Shown in pieces: positions 7,006 through 23,946 of a DNA stretch of 24,731 nt. The position numbers were made by a program, and so were the translations under genes. Position 1 is the first letter of the stretch. The number at the start of each line of letters is the position of its first letter. The stretch is from Chrysochromulina tobinii (Eukaryota; Haptophyta; Prymnesiales; Chrysochromulinaceae): contig JWZX01002575.1 of the NCBI GenBank assembly GCA_001275005.1, forward strand, positions 1-24,731. The letters run 5' to 3'. The notes under the pieces are model-generated. The model saw only the letters and a list, made by a program, of their open reading frames with translations, was not told where the DNA came from and did no database searches.

Positions 7006-10000
7006 ATGGCCGGACTCTTTGACGAGAGCGTGGTGCCCTCGCTCTCCATGCAGACGACGGGCGGCGCCGCCGACGAGCCATTCAGCCTCGAGGTACTCGG
7101 CACGCTCTCACTGCCTGTGCAACAGCTGGCCTCGGGTGAGCGATGGCTCATTCACTGCGCGTCGCAAGGTGGTTCCTTCTTCCTCTGGCTGGACGACCAC
7201 CTCGTGTGCGAGGGCGGCAACATGCAGCCCAAATGGAATCCGTTCCGGCTCGAGGCGGTGCTGCCCTTTTCCCACAGCCCACGCCAAACGCGCTTCTTCC
7301 TGCGCGCCACGTTTGTGCAGCAGCCAGCACGCCACCCGATGGACGGCCGTGAGCTGCACCAAGCCGCCGGCAAGCGCCGGCTCGAGGCGAGCGGGCGGGC
7401 AGGCTTCTCCCTGAGCTGGCAACGAACCAGCACGGCGCCCGTGTACTCGTGGGGCAAGAACCGCTGGGAAGCATCAAGGGGGGCACCTGTGATGGTGTCA
7501 GTGCCACGCTCAGCGCTCTCGACGTACGTGCCCGCCGCGCAGCACGCGCGTCTCACGATGCAGCGCGAGCTCCTCCATGGGTACTGGGGCACATGGAACG
7601 AGCGCTCCGTCACCACGCACGTCATGCTGCCTTTTGGGGTCGAGCTGCGTTTCGGACTATGTGTTCTCTCCGGCCTTGGCAGCGGCGTCGGTCGGGAGCT
7701 CTCCCAAGGTACGATCTCCGGTCGGGAGCTCTCCCAAGGTACGATCTCCGGCCGGGAGCTCTCCCAAGGTACGATCTCCGGCCGGGAGCTCTCCCAAGGT
7801 ACAAGTGCGGGCGGCGGCACGAGCCCATGCGAGCTAGAGGGTACCAAGGCGATGATCGACGATGGGCGCGTGCGGTTGGGGGCGCACGGGTATCGGCACG
7901 AGTACACGCAACTCTTCTTCACCTCGGCGGGAGTCAACGTGTCCATTGAGACGATGCAGAAGAGCCGCTGGGGGCCTTTGCTAGTGCATGCGCGGCTGGT
8001 GGGCGTTCAGGCGCGCGCCCCCAACGTGGCCTTCGTGGTGAGCGTGGGGGCGACGGGCAGCGACGGTGGTGGCCATCAGCTGCCGGGTCGCGTCATCGAG
8101 AGTCGTGACGGCCAAGGCCGTGAGAGCATCACCGTCAACACCGATGGGCTGTGGAAACGTAACGGCAAGAGCCCGAAAGAGAAGATAGGTGGACTGACCG
8201 TGCGCGGCGCGGCGGGGAGCAAGTCGATCAAGATCGCCTCGCTCGGTAAGATGCCCCATCTCGCCTTCGCGCTCGGCCCGGGCTCCAAAGGCCAAGCTAA
8301 CGAAGGCGTCGGGCTGCTAGCGTCCCGAGCGGCGCGTGGCTCGCGCACGGTCCGCGAGATTTCCAGCTCCATGAGCGAGGCGCGCGCCGACGTGGAGCGG
8401 CACCTCGAAGCATTCGGAACGCACGCGGAGGTCAAGCAGCTGACACAAGCGGCGCTCATGTGGAATCAACTCTCTCGCTCCATGCTGCCTGGGCCGCAGA
8501 CGCAGTGCGCGCGCGGATGGGGACGGCCGTGGGTAGCCTTCATGTGGGACGACGTCTTCGCCTCGATGCAGCTCGCCCTCGACCAGCGTGCGCTCGCGTA
8601 CTCGCAGCTGACGACGCTGCTCAAGGGAAAGCTCTCTGAAGGATTCGTGCCCAACATGTGGATGCCCAACTGGATCTCTTTTGACCGTTCAGGCCCACCG
8701 CTTGGCGCGTTGGCGTTGCGCCTGCTGCACACCCGTTACAACGACGATTGGCTCGTCGAGCTGCTCTTCGAGGACGTGGCCGCGTGGCTCGACTGGTTCT
8801 GGCGCAAACGCCGGCTGCAGCCGCTCGGCCTCATCGCCCTCGGCAGTGACCCCGGTGCGATGGGCTCCAAGTACAACAAGCCCAGCCTCAAGATGGCCAA
8901 GCTCGAGTCCGGGATGGATAACTCGCCCATGTATGACGAGGCCTCCTTTGACAACACGAGCACGCTGCTCATGCGCCTGTACGATGTCGGCATGTCCTCG
9001 CTCGTGGTCGCCGAGCTTCGTCACCTCTCTGCGCTCGCCGAAGCGTCGCTCGCCCACCACGACGCCTTTCCCGACGAGCACGCGCGGCGCGCTCGGCAAG
9101 AGCAAGGCAGGCAGCTCGAATCGCGCGCGCACGAGCTCGGCCAGCTCATCCAAGCCCATCTGTGGAATGAGGAGCTCGGCGCCTTTACGAACCGCTATCA
9201 GGATGAAGGCGGCCGGCTGAGCACGCGCGTCTCGCCGACAAGTTTCTACCCTCTCCTCGCTGGCCTCGCCACAGATGCGCAGGCGGAACGCATGGTCACC
9301 GAATGGCTCCTCAACCCTCGCCGCTTCTGTATCCATGTGGAGGGTGTCTCACGCGCTGAGCGATCAACGCAATGCCACTGGGGCCTACCGTCGATCACCT
9401 TTGAGGACGCAGCCTTCAAGGAGCAGGATTACTGGCGAGGTCTTGTGTGGTCGCCGACCTCCCTCCTCGTCTACGCGGGTCTGCTTCAGTATGACCACGT
9501 GCCCGTCGTGCGCCGTGGCCGTAAGGCTTTGGTGGCGCAGATGCGCTCGATGGTGCTGGACATGTGGCGCCGGCACGGGCACGTGTGCGAGAACTACTCG
9601 CCGAGCGCGCGCGCGCTCAATTGCACGGGCGACCGCTTCCACCAGTGGGGCGCCCTTGCATCGTATCTCTCCCTACTCGAGGCAGGCTATGTACGCCTCC
9701 CACAACTTTCACAGATGATCCCCCGTGGGGTGGCGCAGCCGGCGGCGTCGGCGAGTGCGGACCGTGCGGCAAGCGAGGCGGCGAAGGCGGGGGCGAAAGC
9801 GGAGGTGAAGTCAGCGCCAAAGGCGGAGGTCGAGGCGACAAGGGAGGTGAAGGCCAAGACTACACCCAGTGCATCGTCGGCCAGTGCCGCTCCCTCGACC
9901 AGCCAGGCTGACAGGGGCCTTTGGCGCGATTGGCGCCGGCACGGCTCTGGGTGGTATGCATGGGCCCCTTTCGCGCGGGACAGTCTTCCAAGTCCATGGA

Positions 10001-19715: not shown

Positions 19716-22700
19716 TCACTCCCATAGCTCCTCTAAGCTCGCAAAGCCCTTCTTGCCTCGACCGACGAGTGCCTCGCCGCGGAGGCGCCGCCGCTGCGGC
19801 AGGCCATCAAGACCACGCAGCGCCTCGTCGACTGCGGGCACATCCGTTCCCGCGCTGCCATCCAAAACGCTTGACGAAATCTTGCCGAAGCCCACTGGAT
19901 GCTGGCCGAGGGCCGCCGCATTCTCGGCGATGCGCTCCAGGCGCGAGCTCCGGGGGATGGCGCTGCAGCCGCGCGCGACCGCCCAGCGTATGAGGGTCTG
20001 TGCTGGGGTGAGGCTGAGCGCACGGCTGGCTTGCACGACTTCGGTCGCCTCAAGCAAACTGGCGCTCAGCCCTCTGTCGTCACCGTCGCAACCAGCCGCG
20101 CCGGCCGCATCGGCCGCATCGGCCGCGATAGTCGCTCTGCCATGCTGACCGTTCGCAGCGGCCTTTCGTCCGTCAGTGCCAACGTGCCCGAGCGGAGAGT
20201 AGGCGGTCACGTGTACTCGGTGAGCGAGGCAATAGGCGAGCAGCTCGTCGTTGCGCCATCCGGGGTGCATCTCCACCTGGTTGACTGCTGGAGGGACGGC
20301 TAGTCCAGGGATTGCGAGCAGTGCACCGAGGCGCCGGGGACTCATGTTCGCCACGCCTGATGAGGGAGGCAATCATCAGAGGTCGTCAGAGGTCGTCAGA
20401 GGTCATCAGAGGTCATCAGAGGTCATCAGAGGTCATCAGAGGTCATCAGACTCCTGTTCGCCACACCGATGGAGACCACAAGTCCGTCCGCCACGAGCGC
20501 CTCGAGCTCACGCCAGATCGGCTCAAGATCGGCCATCGATGGCGGCGGCCAGTGGAGCAAGTACAAGTCGAGCCGGTCGAGCTGAAGCGCACGGAGCGAC
20601 GCAAGGCATGCGGCGCGCACGTTGGCCGGTCTTGCATCCGAGATCCACAGCTTGGAGGTGACGAAGAGGTCGGCACGCCGTACGCGCCCCTCACACATCG
20701 CAGCATGGATCGCCTCGCCAACGGCCGCCTCGTTGCGATAAATTGAAGCGCAATCGAGATGCCGCACGCCCGCACGTAGGGCAGCCTCCACCGCCGCACG
20801 TGCCTCGTGTGGGGAAAGTTCCCAGGTGCCCACGCCGAGCAGAGGGATGGCGGCACCGGTGTTCAGGACGACGCGAGGACCACCGGGGCGCTCCCGATCC
20901 GCCGCCGACACGGCGCCATCGCTGCCCGACACGGCGCCACCGCCGCCCGACACGGCGCAATCGCCGCCCGACACGGCGCCATCGCCGCCCGACACGGCGC
21001 AATCACCGCCCGACACGGCGCCGCCGCCGCCGCCGCCGCCGCTGCAATCATTTACCGTGCTGCCCTGAACATTGCCGGTCTCATCGCCGTCGACGAGCGC
21101 TTCGAGCGCCGTCTCGAGCGCACGGATCGCCCGGCGCGCATAAAACTGCCGAAACTCTGTTGGCAGCGCGGCCAGCTCTGCGGCCGCGGCGTCGACGTGG
21201 GCCATGGCCTGCGTGGCTGCTGGCGGATCGCGGTTGCCGTACAGGTCCTTCGGGTCGTACATCGCGCGCGTGAGCGCTGCCGGGCCTGCGGGGCTCGGCG
21301 ATGGCTGGTGCGAGCGCCAGAAGACATTCAGGGCCACGCTGAATCCAATCGAGGTGACGTTGTGGAACCAGAGCGCGGGAATGAAGAGCACGTCGCCGGG
21401 TGCGAGCTCGCACTCTCGGCGTGTGGCCACCGCCGCCCGGAAGCGAGGCCACTCATCGTCATTCCAACGGTCAATGTCGGAGACGCGGGAGGAGGAGCCT
21501 TCAGTGTACCTGATGAGGGAGGTAATCAGAGGTCATCAGAGGCAATCAGAGCCTTCAGTGTACCTGATGAGGGAGGTAATCCGCGCCCATCAAGAGGCCA
21601 TCAAGAGGCCATCAAGAGGCCATCAAGAGGCCATCAAGAGGAGGAGGCTCCAGTGTACAGATTGGCATCCTCTGAAGGCGGCCAGAGCACCACGCGTTTT
21701 CGACCGGTGAGCTGCGCGAGTGCATTGTCCATCACGTCGAAGTGCGTCCACAGCTGCGTATCGTCCGAGGCGAGCCGCAGAACCGACGAGTGATAGCTCG
21801 CACGGCGTACGATCGCGCCGCCCCGAGCGTTCACACCAACCGCACCGTTCACACCGTGTGCACCAGTCGCGTCCGAGTGGGCATCATCCGAGCTCGACGT
21901 GCACTTGGTGACGGCTCGCTCGTCCTCGATCGGCTGCGGCAGCAGCCGGCACTCGCGTGCAAGCTCGGGGAAGGTCGAGGGGAAGTCGGCCGCGTCCTTC
22001 CTGGGGTCGGGCCCGACGGAACGAAGATAGTAGCGCTCGCCGCTTTCGAGGAGCGGAGGGTATGAGGGGAGTCGAGGCTGAGGGTGGACCGCTGCCGCCG
22101 TCGCGCCTGCTTGGTCACCTTCGTCAGCAGCGGCGTCACTGCCATCTGCGGCCTGATGAGCCTCGCCATCTGCCGCCTGATGAGCCTCGCCAGTCCCTTG
22201 GCCGTAGCAGCGCCATACCGCCTCCGCGAAGGGCATCGAGCGGAAGACAAAGTTTCGCGGCGTGTTAGGCGCTCGATGCCCCGCGAGGTCGACCACGGCG
22301 TTCGGGCACACGTGGACGCTCACGCTCGCCGAGGTGCAGCGGGTGGCGGCAAGGTGCGAAGCGGTCCAACGTCCGCTGCATGCGCCGAGATCGAGACCTC
22401 GGAGAATTGCAGGCTCACGCGCGCGGAAGGCATGCTGCTCCAGCCACGCAGCGTCCGCGAATGCGGGGCACTGGACCACGCGCACCGGCGCCGCCCGCGG
22501 AAGTCGCGCCGCCTCGGCGCCCTTGCCGCCCCTACCGCCCTCGCCGCTCTCGCCGCCGCCGCTGCTGCGCCGCGCCGCCGCCCCGCCTCCAAACGATCGC
22601 TGCTGTGCTGGCGGCTTGGGCCGGGCATGTGCCCGTGGCAGCGCGGCCGGCAGCGCGGCTCGTCCTGTGCCCGGCATGGCGTGCACGGGGCTGTCGCCAT

Positions 22701-23946
22701 TCGCCGCAGACGTGGGCTTCTGAGGCTTGGGCGGCGGCTTTGAGGCCAGCGCCCCAGCCGCCATCGGCTCCAGCGCCAGCACTGCTCGCAGCTCGGGCAC
22801 CGACCCATCCGCCATGGCGCGTCGAAGTGACGCGACGCCCGCCACGCAGATTGGGAAGGCGAGCCTACACCCGTCGGGCCTTGCCTTGCCCTCTGACGCC
22901 GGCGGCGGCAGCAACGAGAGCGGCTTCAGGCACGCATCCAGCCAGCCGTTGGATTTGAGCACATCCTTGACCTTCTTCCCATCCGCCGCATGGACCACGG
23001 CCGCCCACGAGATCTCGGCGATCTCCGATATATCGGAGATATCCGAGATCTCGTGGGCGGAGATCTCCGAGATCGCCGAGATCGCCGCGAGGGGCATAGC
23101 ATCAGCTAGGGGTGTGTCGGCGCCCATCGTGTCCGACGGCGTTGTAGCCGCCTCCGTCGTCGCTACGGCCGTCGTCCGAGTGCTGAGCGCCGCCCTGAGC
23201 GCTACCCACTCTGGCAGCAGGACGATCGCTGCTGCTTGTGCGTCCAGCGGCTGCAGCGGCATCGGCGTCGGCGGCATCGCACGCGTGATGACGGTGCCGT
23301 CGGGCGTGCTGTGCACGCGCGTGAGCGCAAATCCCGCGCTCGCCAAGTGCTCCAGCACCACCTCCTCCTGCTTGCCGCGCGCACGCCATGACAGCAAGCA
23401 CGGCGCACCCAGCGCGGCAATCGTGGCAGCAAGATGCGTGTAGGCCGAAGGCTGGTAGACGCAATCGCAGGCGATGACGAGGTCTGCGCGCAGCCCATCG
23501 GGCAGAGGCTCGCCCCACGGCAGCGCCTTGATCTCGATGGGCTCGAGTCGCCTCGTAAGGCTGTGATGGGCCCGAGTCGCCGCGTAGTTTTGTTCTGCAT
23601 TTGCACGTAGCAGCGGCAAGGCCGTCTCCAAATCAGTCAACGTGACCCTTGCGCCCATGGCAGCGCATGCAAGGCCGATGACGCCCGTTCCAGCACCGAG
23701 CTCGACGACCGCCTTGCCCTGGAGCCCAGTCGGTGCGAACGCGGACTCGAGGTATGCCAGCGTTGCCTCGGCAGCCTCCCAGACGACAGCACCCGCGCCG
23801 CATGCCCAGAGGGCTTCAGCGCTCATGCTTGTGTCCTGAGTAATGCTCAGCGATTGGCCAGAAGTGAGCTCGAAGATGCGCGCGCGGTGCTGCTTGGGAG
23901 TGCCTCTTTGCCAGGCGCGAGCTTCGTCGTCGTCGTCTGAGTCCAT
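19716..23946 (-). CDS. TYW5: Fusion: METTL21-like methyltransferase + TYW2-type domain + TYW5 JmjC hydroxylase + aldo-keto reductase (3 exons)
   Basis: Minus-strand exons 23946-21659, 21509-20467 and 20356-19716 give 1323 residues with matching phases. (1) About 20-225: METTL21/Methyltransf_16-like domain, SAM motif VVELGAGTGVIG (80-91), DCVYQPSAY (161-169). (2) About 313-392: AAVVHAADGKKVKDVLKSNG then WLD, like the small N domain of TYW2 enzymes. (3) About 500-900: TYW5 JmjC hydroxylase, PAILRGLDLGACSGRW, YYLRSVGPDPRKD, iron ligands His735, Asp737 and His812, then YGNRDP and FRQFYARR. TYW5 hydroxylates wybutosine precursors at tRNA-Phe position 37. (4) About 974-1323: aldo-keto reductase with tetrad Asp1015, Tyr1020, Lys1049, His1082. 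Splicing restores NLYTEGSSSRVSDID in JmjC and SIGVANMSPRRLG in AKR; stops occur if introns are kept. The JmjC-AKR join lies in one continuous exon, so the fusion does not depend on splicing. What the AKR reduces is unknown. Confidence 0.9.
20357..20466 (-). other. Intron 2 of the fusion gene, introner-like (110 bp)
   Basis: On the minus strand the intron starts GTGTGGCG and ends GATTGCCTCCCTCATCAG. It is filled with about eight copies of the 10-mer CTCTGATGAC. The 10-base sequence GTGGCGAACA occurs near the intron start (20464-20455) and again in the downstream exon (20354-20345), exactly one intron length apart, like a target-site duplication. The only change next to it, GC to GT, creates the donor. 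CTGAT in each repeat could serve as a branch point. Removal restores the aldo-keto reductase core; retention gives an early stop. Confidence 0.9.
20907..21042 (-). repeat. 21-bp minisatellite coding the JmjC-AKR linker
   Basis: Six copies of a 21-bp unit (plus strand GACACGGCGCCATCGCCGCC plus C) followed by a (GCC)n run. In the minus frame each copy gives seven residues, GGDGAVS or GGDCAVS. They form a flexible Gly-rich linker of about 48 residues between the hydroxylase and reductase domains, with no stop codon. Confidence 0.9.
21510..21658 (-). other. Intron 1 of the fusion gene, tandem double introner (149 bp)
   Basis: On the minus strand it starts GTACACTGGAGCC and ends GATTACCTCCCTCATCAG. 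The 19 bases at its start match the first 19 bases of the next exon (GTACACTGAAGGCTCCTCC) at 17 positions, one intron length apart. Inside, a second complete boundary, CATCAG/GTACACTGAAGGCTC, lies at 21564/21563, so the intron is two units: 21658-21564 (95 bp, with five 11-bp TCTTGATGGCC repeats) and 21563-21510 (54 bp). Splicing of only one unit leaves a stop codon; removal of both restores the TYW5 frame. Confidence 0.9.
22141..22188 (-). repeat. Two 24-bp repeats in the JmjC region
   Basis: Two adjacent 24-bp copies with one difference encode GEAHQAAD twice in a loop insertion before the YYLRSVGPDPRKD motif. Each copy contains CTCATCAG, the last eight bases of the introner units. Confidence 0.85.
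23001..23060. repeat. 60-bp near-perfect palindrome inside the coding sequence
   Basis: The arms 23001-23030 and 23031-23060 are reverse complements except for two adjacent positions, with no spacer. The palindrome encodes an EIS/DIS low-complexity stretch (about residues 296-316) between the methyltransferase and the TYW2-type domain. Further GAGATC-type repeats continue to about 23085. Confidence 0.95.

Follow-up and report, generated by a model that had tools for sequence, protein, structure and literature searches.

The window analysed here, a 24,731-bp stretch of Chrysochromulina tobinii, is contig C1423 of a 53.15 Mb assembly of 2,253 contigs. It contains a gene on the minus strand (19716-23946) in which Methyltransf_16 (lysine-methyltransferase-like), Cupin_8/JmjC and aldo-keto reductase domains are fused in one frame, to our knowledge an unusual combination. 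Two predicted introns divide the gene, each bordered by a duplicated target sequence:

21659..23946, minus strand: exon 1 of a spliced open reading frame of 1323 aa; Methyltransf_16, then most of Cupin_8/JmjC (Pfam)
21510..21658, minus strand: predicted intron 1, 149 nt; two stacked family A units with 3' ends at 21564-21581 and 21510-21527
21638..21658, minus strand: intron 1 target duplication (21 bp), first copy, with the GT donor; 19/21 identical to 21489-21509
21549..21563, minus strand: further copy of the target start, GTACACTGAAGGCTC, inside intron 1 where its two stacked units meet; 13/15 identical to the first copy
21489..21509, minus strand: second copy of the target duplication of intron 1, the start of exon 2
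20467..21509, minus strand: exon 2; end of Cupin_8 and start of the aldo-keto reductase (spliced frame, Pfam)
20357..20466, minus strand: predicted intron 2, 110 nt; one family A unit with its 3' end at 20357-20374 and 10-bp repeats at 20373-20450
20449..20466, minus strand: intron 2 target duplication (18 bp), first copy, with the GT donor; 16/18 identical to 20339-20356
20339..20356, minus strand: second copy of the target duplication of intron 2, the start of exon 3; begins with GC
19716..20356, minus strand: exon 3; remainder of the aldo-keto reductase and stop codon

Splicing both introns in silico yields a single open frame of 1323 aa. Retention of intron 1 leads to a stop after 770 residues, and retention of intron 2 to a stop after 1123. 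The first junction (residue ~763) lies within Cupin_8 (507-830, 1.6e-33) and the second (~1110) within Aldo_ket_red (987-1260, 2.9e-45) in the Pfam search.

The initial annotation had described a common 3' end, and this is confirmed: GATTRCCTCCCTCATCAG occurs three times in the window, always on the minus strand (20357-20374, 21510-21527 and 21564-21581), compared to a mean of 0.05 over 100 shuffles, none of which contained three copies. Short tandem repeats fill the units as described, with 7.8 copies of a 10-bp repeat (20373-20450), 5.0 copies of an 11-bp repeat (21587-21641) and 3.3 copies of a 10-bp repeat (21519-21551). The flanking duplications are also present, and in both introns the two copies lie exactly one intron length apart, but the lengths first given (17/19 and 10/10) were too short; the matches are 19/21 for intron 1 and 16/18 for intron 2. 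The C-to-T difference between the copies at the donor of intron 2 is real. It need not have been required for splicing, since 23 of 136 sampled copies (see below) have GC directly behind the 3' end. We read intron 1 as the probable result of two insertion events at one site, because another copy of the target start directly follows the unit end at 21564. A 24-bp tandem repeat in exonic sequence (22141-22192) contains GCTCATCAGGC, which resembles the introner 3' end within coding sequence, possibly by chance. Elsewhere in the window, a 30-bp tandem repeat (7689-7802; 3.8 copies, 98%) lies within a long open reading frame.

The 18-mer 3' end, which defines family A, has 1006 exact copies in the 53.15 Mb genome, whereas the reversed pattern has none. 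GT follows directly in 677 copies. The end is thus not confined to this gene; such confinement was one of the results that the initial annotation had named as refuting its reading. Searches for the 18-mer outside the alga gave one viral contig in IMG/VR with no introner context (GC 0.41) and seven prokaryotic contigs in 257 Gb, which by our own estimate is within chance; we rejected the idea of introner copies in viruses or bacteria. We assembled a sample from the window and the DNA around copies on contigs C1 to C176, taken in order and not picked by duplication. It comprises 206,237 bp in 39 segments (GC 64.0%) and holds 154 copies with at most four mismatches. Three copies with short flanks were dropped from the duplication scoring (leaving 151), as were 15 with an introner repeat downstream, which left 136. 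The bases right after the terminal CAG recur upstream with a score of at least 11 in 72, at least 15 in 55 and at least 20 in 42 of the 136 copies; the corresponding numbers for swapped loci are 15, 1 and 0 of 648. The target-duplication model of the initial annotation, with the GT coming from the host copy and the AG from the insert, is borne out by this comparison (55/136 versus 1/648 at a score of at least 15). A same-locus control with the query shifted 35 bases downstream gave 28, 19 and 12 of 136 at the three thresholds; we think that these matches come from long duplications and tandem units that reach the shifted query, and the control shows that the sampled loci are repeat-rich. About half of the sampled copies have no scored duplication even at the loosest threshold. 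Such copies are older, lie in arrays, or are different.

For the anatomy of the units we used 48 simple ones, obtained from the 72 by removing 24 (13 with body motifs in the duplication and 11 with the end of another unit inside). Stacking on another unit is seen in 11 of the 48, and the set of 48 still includes two whole-unit tandem copies (56 and 59 bp). The duplication has a median of 22 bp and the body (unit minus duplication) a median of 55.5 nt; total length ranges from 67 to 229, with a median of 82. The 36 non-stacked units have duplications of 11-44 bp, plus one of 58. Twelve non-stacked units have perfect duplications, measuring 11, 12, 15, 18, 20, 22, 23, 26, 29, 33, 33 and 33 bp, a spread (11 to 33 bp) that is not the fixed short TSD of DNA-transposon introners. 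The first target copy starts with GTR in 33 and with GC in 5 of the 48 units, and the preceding base is G in 53 of 72. At least one CTGAY, which we read as a branch-site-like motif, occurs in 41 of 48 bodies, and 16 nt follow the A of the last CTGAY in 29 of 48. We looked for TIRs of at least 6 nt in these units and found none: inverted CCTCATCAG is seen at the body start in 0/48, TGATGA in the first 10 nt of 3/48 bodies, and CTGATGAGG near the start in 0/48. An apparent length law relating duplication to body (rho -0.77) was discarded, as a floor of 67 nt on total length, which we read as a minimum intron length, explains most of it: the null mean is -0.58, and the fraction of nulls as low is 0.002 for the 48 units and 0.08 for 19 perfect units.

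Splicing was tested in silico on 34 clean units, after 82 copies without duplication and 38 with introner motifs in their flanks had been left out; only the upstream exon was used to fix the reading frame. In 30 of the 34 the predicted junction had the highest coding score. Shifting the acceptor by 2 nt gave a better score in four, and shifting it by 1 nt in none. With the predicted junction the downstream exon is open in 29 of 34, compared to 16 for a shift of +1 and 26 for a shift of +2, and exon openness alone is therefore a weak test in this GC-rich genome. A retained unit meets a stop in 31 of 34. Twelve spliced peptides were built and five of these, picked by eye, were run against Pfam. 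The domain spans the junction in four (Exo_endo_phos in C71, MMR_HSR1 in C174, an Fn3-like domain in C97 and an ADP-ribosyltransferase in C45); in the fifth, from C107, the FtsZ_C domain stops at the junction. Removal of the units thus restores the coding frame in silico (30/34, with domains across junctions).

A scan for duplications that start with GT, blind to the 3' end, returned 154, of which 38 are preceded by AG; GC was the next dinucleotide, with 16, and the other 116 are other repeats. Without overlaps there are 35 AG units, 20 from family A and 15 others. Five of these 15 have in common, with small differences, the end ...ATGCAAGTGCTCACCACGGCGCCCTCTCCCCACAG. The core of this second family (family B), TGCTCACYACGGCGCC, has 793 exact copies genome-wide and none in the reversed control; its 3' tail is more variable, with 23 exact copies of GGCGCCCTCTCCCCACAG. 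Similar introns thus stand at many unrelated loci of one genome (1006 and 793 copies, reversed controls 0). Scanning for family B with three mismatches allowed, and choosing the AG with the best duplication, gave 107 places, most of which we take to be chance matches. We therefore used the 28 copies with at most one mismatch, 26 of which had enough flank for a swapped control. The duplication score is at least 14 in 13/26, compared to 9/624 swapped pairs in which the AG could be chosen just as freely. In nine of the copies with one mismatch or none, a duplication of 20-41 bp stands right behind the acceptor (C80, C167, C86, C109, C114, C40, C153 and two in C124). Judged by sequence, family B is dissimilar to family A yet has the same architecture. 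Inspection of family B by eye revealed no TIR. The family B copies examined have no tandem repeats in their bodies, so repeat growth is not needed for mobility. Minor groups of units end in TGCATGCAG, GCCACAG or GCGCAG. The single shared 3' end of the initial annotation therefore holds for family A, but it is not the sole end, as the second family and the minor ends have the same architecture. Our unit scans demanded AG, and copies ending elsewhere would escape them.

Units also occur on top of each other and in series. Eighteen of 82 units start exactly on the 3' end of another; this stacking is partly tandem duplication (near-identical units) and partly the result of separate events (different bodies, as read for intron 1 of the window). 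Whole-unit tandem arrays of target copy plus body, with a period of 60-80 bp, are seen at C107:2635-2775, C176:1830-1950 and C54:4587-4661 and in C395 and C1665. They perhaps arose by unequal exchange between long target duplications, a process that could also remove an intron precisely. At C127:6604-6684, four exact 18-mer 3' ends follow each other at a spacing of 21 bp. By a codon-usage score, 105 of the 154 family A copies are in sense orientation, 3 antisense, 36 undecided and 10 unscorable; the 28 family B copies divide into 21 sense, 2 antisense and 5 undecided. One of the antisense family A calls (C33:14205, four mismatches) is to the eye a chance match to the motif. The sense bias does not prove an RNA route, because selection for splicing could yield the same bias.

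Some units carry additional bases, or filler, after the first target copy and before the family sequence, and in two cases the filler could be traced to a donor. Three places in C395 contain the filler of the unit at C19:19715, which belongs there both to the 46-bp exon duplication of a family A intron and to the intact exon. The C19 and C395 introns agree at every one of their last 58 nt (58/58), 24 of which are coding in C395. Likewise, the filler of the unit at C124:4125-4203 matches part of a 31-bp exon duplication in C1665 that occurs three times around a family B intron; here 54 of the last 57 nt agree (three mismatches), and 17 nt of this stretch are coding in C1665. Each match extends exactly to the AG, and after splicing in silico each donor reads through the segment as coding sequence in one open frame. 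Between donor and recipient pieces blastn found only introner-type stretches, and tblastx some further short matches in GC-rich sequence. The 200-nt exon flanks of donor and recipient have local scores of 14-17, where the 95th percentiles of shuffles are 16-18; the C395/C19 pair exceeds its percentile by 1, the C1665/C124 pair stays below its own, and the nearest 60 bases agree at 12-21 positions. On these comparisons, donor and recipient genes do not appear to be evident paralogues. The inserted molecule would thus have held the exon-derived head of the donor intron and ended at the donor 3' splice site. Since the two copies carry sequence derived from a donor exon, what moved appears to have been a donor intron, from an internal point to its exact 3' end. 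An element with fixed ends fails to explain this capture, and the interpretation of the initial annotation, otherwise supported, has to be amended: in the two traced cases the moving unit seems not to have had two fixed ends.

Past the AG, the target and the downstream exon of the donor share GTACG in one pair and GTACGG in the other (5-6 nt). Random GT pairs share at least 5 nt in 9.7% and at least 6 nt in 2.7% of cases, which puts the joint chance at ~0.0026 (a post hoc product of the two frequencies, for two pairs). Weaker evidence for a third case, noticed by eye and then checked, comes from C127, which holds a C76 intron copied at its full length of 67 nt (60/67), with no target duplication seen. 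No donor was found for the filler at C139:10496, and a genome search with seven joined fillers returned the own loci of two of them, C97 and C158, and no near-identical donor for either. Within the sample, none of the matches listed (25 of 36 14-mer hits) read as a donor.

Introners are known from more lineages than the Micromonas, Aureococcus and some dinoflagellates named in the initial annotation: PMC9860276 (Gozashti et al. 2022) reports 548 families spread over 175 genomes, one of them a Chrysochromulina sp. metagenome assembly. Among the families judged there, 49/130 have TSDs and 72/177 have TIRs; previously known TSDs are 3-9 bp, other families show none, and most families with assignable features resemble small DNA transposons. 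Family 5 of the Chrysochromulina sp. TARA MAG comes from the same genus and also has no TIR, but as described in that paper it has a 4-bp TSD and brings along the 5' site, with the 3' site being co-opted, which is opposite to the arrangement seen here. According to PMC11782384 (Rogers and Bendich 2025), direct repeats of 4-30 bp occur at or near the borders of 213 introns; the repeats are alike, but that study is a general intron survey and not about a single mobile family with donors. The genome paper for C. tobin (PMC4580454) gives an average of one intron per gene. A literature search that included the available parts of PMC7789003, PMC11453091, PMC12768974 and PMC12403724 found no introners with long variable duplications or captured donor exons. 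Measured against this part of the literature, the long variable duplications, the second family with the same architecture and the two copies with donor exon sequence are new here.

How did these introns arise? Any answer has to accommodate the families, the variable duplications, the restored frames, the continuous domains and the donor exon sequence captured in two cases, all of which can be read directly from the assembly. With slightly better than even confidence, we favour the view that the units are introners, that is, copies derived from introns that have moved, made by RNA-templated copying that starts at the 3' end. A staggered-ended break would open in a gene, mostly at G|GTR. An existing introner-bearing locus or its transcript would serve as the template, with copying beginning at the exact 3' end (CAG) and halting at a variable upstream point, sometimes within the donor's own exon-derived head. 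As the staggered ends are filled in, a target stretch of 11 to about 45 bp would be duplicated. The new intron would take its first bases, and with them the donor site, from the 5' copy of this stretch, and the copied tail would bring branch-site-like motifs (CTGAY or CTCAC), pyrimidines and the AG. Splicing would then take out one target copy together with the insert, and the old coding sequence would be back. We infer both the staggered break and the 3'-end-first copying from RNA, as in target-primed reverse transcription. The long variable duplications speak for staggered cuts or a return to an earlier template position, and against a transposase with a fixed stagger; the constant 3' end and variable 5' end suggest copying from the 3' end. 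A primed reverse transcript of an RNA made by splicing and ending in CAG would give all features, including the variably cut heads. The 5-6 nt that target and donor exon share in each of the two pairs speak against a free intron RNA; they indicate microhomology, which needs no free excised intron, and fit priming on an unspliced transcript or DNA template switching.

Target-primed retrotransposition of LINEs and SINEs gives a constant 3' end, variable 5' truncation and variable target duplications. The introner units have this pattern of constant 3' end, variable 5' end and variable duplication, but their inserts are mostly 35-100 nt and no partner reverse transcriptase was identified. RVT_1 is found at 26 places in the genome. 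Of the four examined, we take L051, whose reverse transcriptase stands within a very long open frame, to be Ty3/gypsy-like, and the other three (L052+L055, L053+L056 and L054) to be copies of a single LINE-like family with an open frame of >1600 aa from the reverse transcriptase onwards; both labels come from reading the sequences. We reached two LINE-like 3' ends among the 26 places; both are (TTAC)n, with a conserved CTGACTGATGRCTTTCATCAG some 110-130 nt before the end, and neither clearly matches the introner end. Aligned to the introner 3' consensus, one scores 10 against a shuffled 95th percentile of 9 and the other 9 against 10, through an internal ATCAG. We do not count this alignment as a link, and a partner LINE found no clear support in the two 3' ends reached at the four places examined out of 26. 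Behind one LINE copy the adjoining 14-mer occurs once in the genome, so no target duplication of that length was seen there.

A bolder version, which we regard as possible but rather less than probable, is that spliceosomal introns themselves retrotranspose: excised or exon-attached intron RNA would be joined or primed, through its 3' splice site, at a genomic G|GT site, and copying in the 3' to 5' direction would leave a long target duplication, comparable to group II retrohoming. If true, host exon sequence would replace the head at each move and only the acceptor half would be inherited, so that any intron with a good acceptor half could turn mobile. PMC3443670 (Yenerall and Zhou 2012) names spliceosomal retrohoming beside intron transposition as a reverse-transcriptase-dependent route; by its name this is an intron copied into a DNA site, as in our reading, but there it stands as a proposal. 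A literature search for the phrase returned this paper alone among the texts available.

The main rival is copying at the DNA level, by replication template switching or microhomology-mediated break repair, which we consider unlikely but worth serious attention. A broken 3' end would pair at the GTRCG behind an introner AG, copy the intron backwards for a few tens of nucleotides and return to the target slightly rightward, thereby duplicating the stretch between; selection would keep only those junctions that splice cleanly. The 5 and 6 nt shared past the AG in the two donor pairs (~0.0026, post hoc) are what such pairing would leave, variable duplications and captured donor sequence are predicted, and tandem arrays and stacked units are indeed common (18/82). 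On the other hand, such copying does not by itself explain why two dissimilar families share the kind of place at which they end, and selection would have to be invoked for this; among the sampled copies, units with similar bodies (identity of at least 0.8 versus <0.6) do not have longer common target starts (p 0.12). The six body pairs with an identity of at least 0.9 do have a longer common target start (mean run 4.83), but the two donor pairs account for four of them. Classical reverse splicing into mRNA, followed by reverse transcription and recombination, accounts for the sense orientation and the exact 3' end, and the full-length 67-nt C76 copy in C127 (60/67), which has no visible target duplication, fits it. 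It predicts whole introns without duplication, however, whereas the two traced copies have duplications and truncated heads and 72/136 sampled copies have a duplication; we judge it improbable. It is the model proposed for the introner elements of Micromonas in the accessible parts of PMC3879977 (Verhelst et al. 2013) and PMC3443670. Those elements resemble the present ones in being spliced introns copied to new genes in sense orientation, and their donor AG|GTGCGT resembles the G|GTRCG starts seen here, but the model given there has no target duplication, while here it is the main feature.

We put slightly less weight still on a non-autonomous DNA transposon that carries the AG and takes the GT from its target duplication. 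The division of labour would be the same as in Symbiodinium microadriaticum, where the insert gives the 3' splice site and the target duplication the 5' site according to PMC9860276. The Symbiodinium introners have a 4-bp TSD and TIRs; here the duplications are 11 to about 45 bp with no single short fixed length, inverted CCTCATCAG is found at 0/48 body starts, and donor exon sequence has been carried along twice. A transposase cutting at the element ends would not move the donor's target duplication. Finally, the units might have arisen locally, by minisatellite growth and tandem duplication of exon segments, with nothing moving from one locus to another. In favour of this, the bodies of many family A units are tandem repeats, and there are whole-unit arrays, which may have formed in this way. 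For the families as a whole, local origin is already refuted and we give it almost no credence: the same ends stand at a thousand places on many contigs, the family B copies examined have no tandem repeats, and the donor pairs lie in dissimilar surroundings.

Taken at face value, the assembly holds two large families of short introns that appear to have spread into many genes of this alga, often with duplication of the target. The introner search described in PMC9860276 demanded similarity near both splice sites and dropped low-complexity families, whereas here the first 11 to about 45 nt of the units with a duplication derive from the target. Such a search would tend to miss these introns, because of the similarity demanded close to both splice sites and the exclusion of repeat-rich families, and introner surveys may thus have a blind spot. 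The origin of new introns is a long-standing open question. With long duplications, and with donor exon sequence in two new introns, one can read for a single event which gene was the donor, in which direction the copy went and which span was copied, and RNA-based and DNA-based models could be separated by counting such events.
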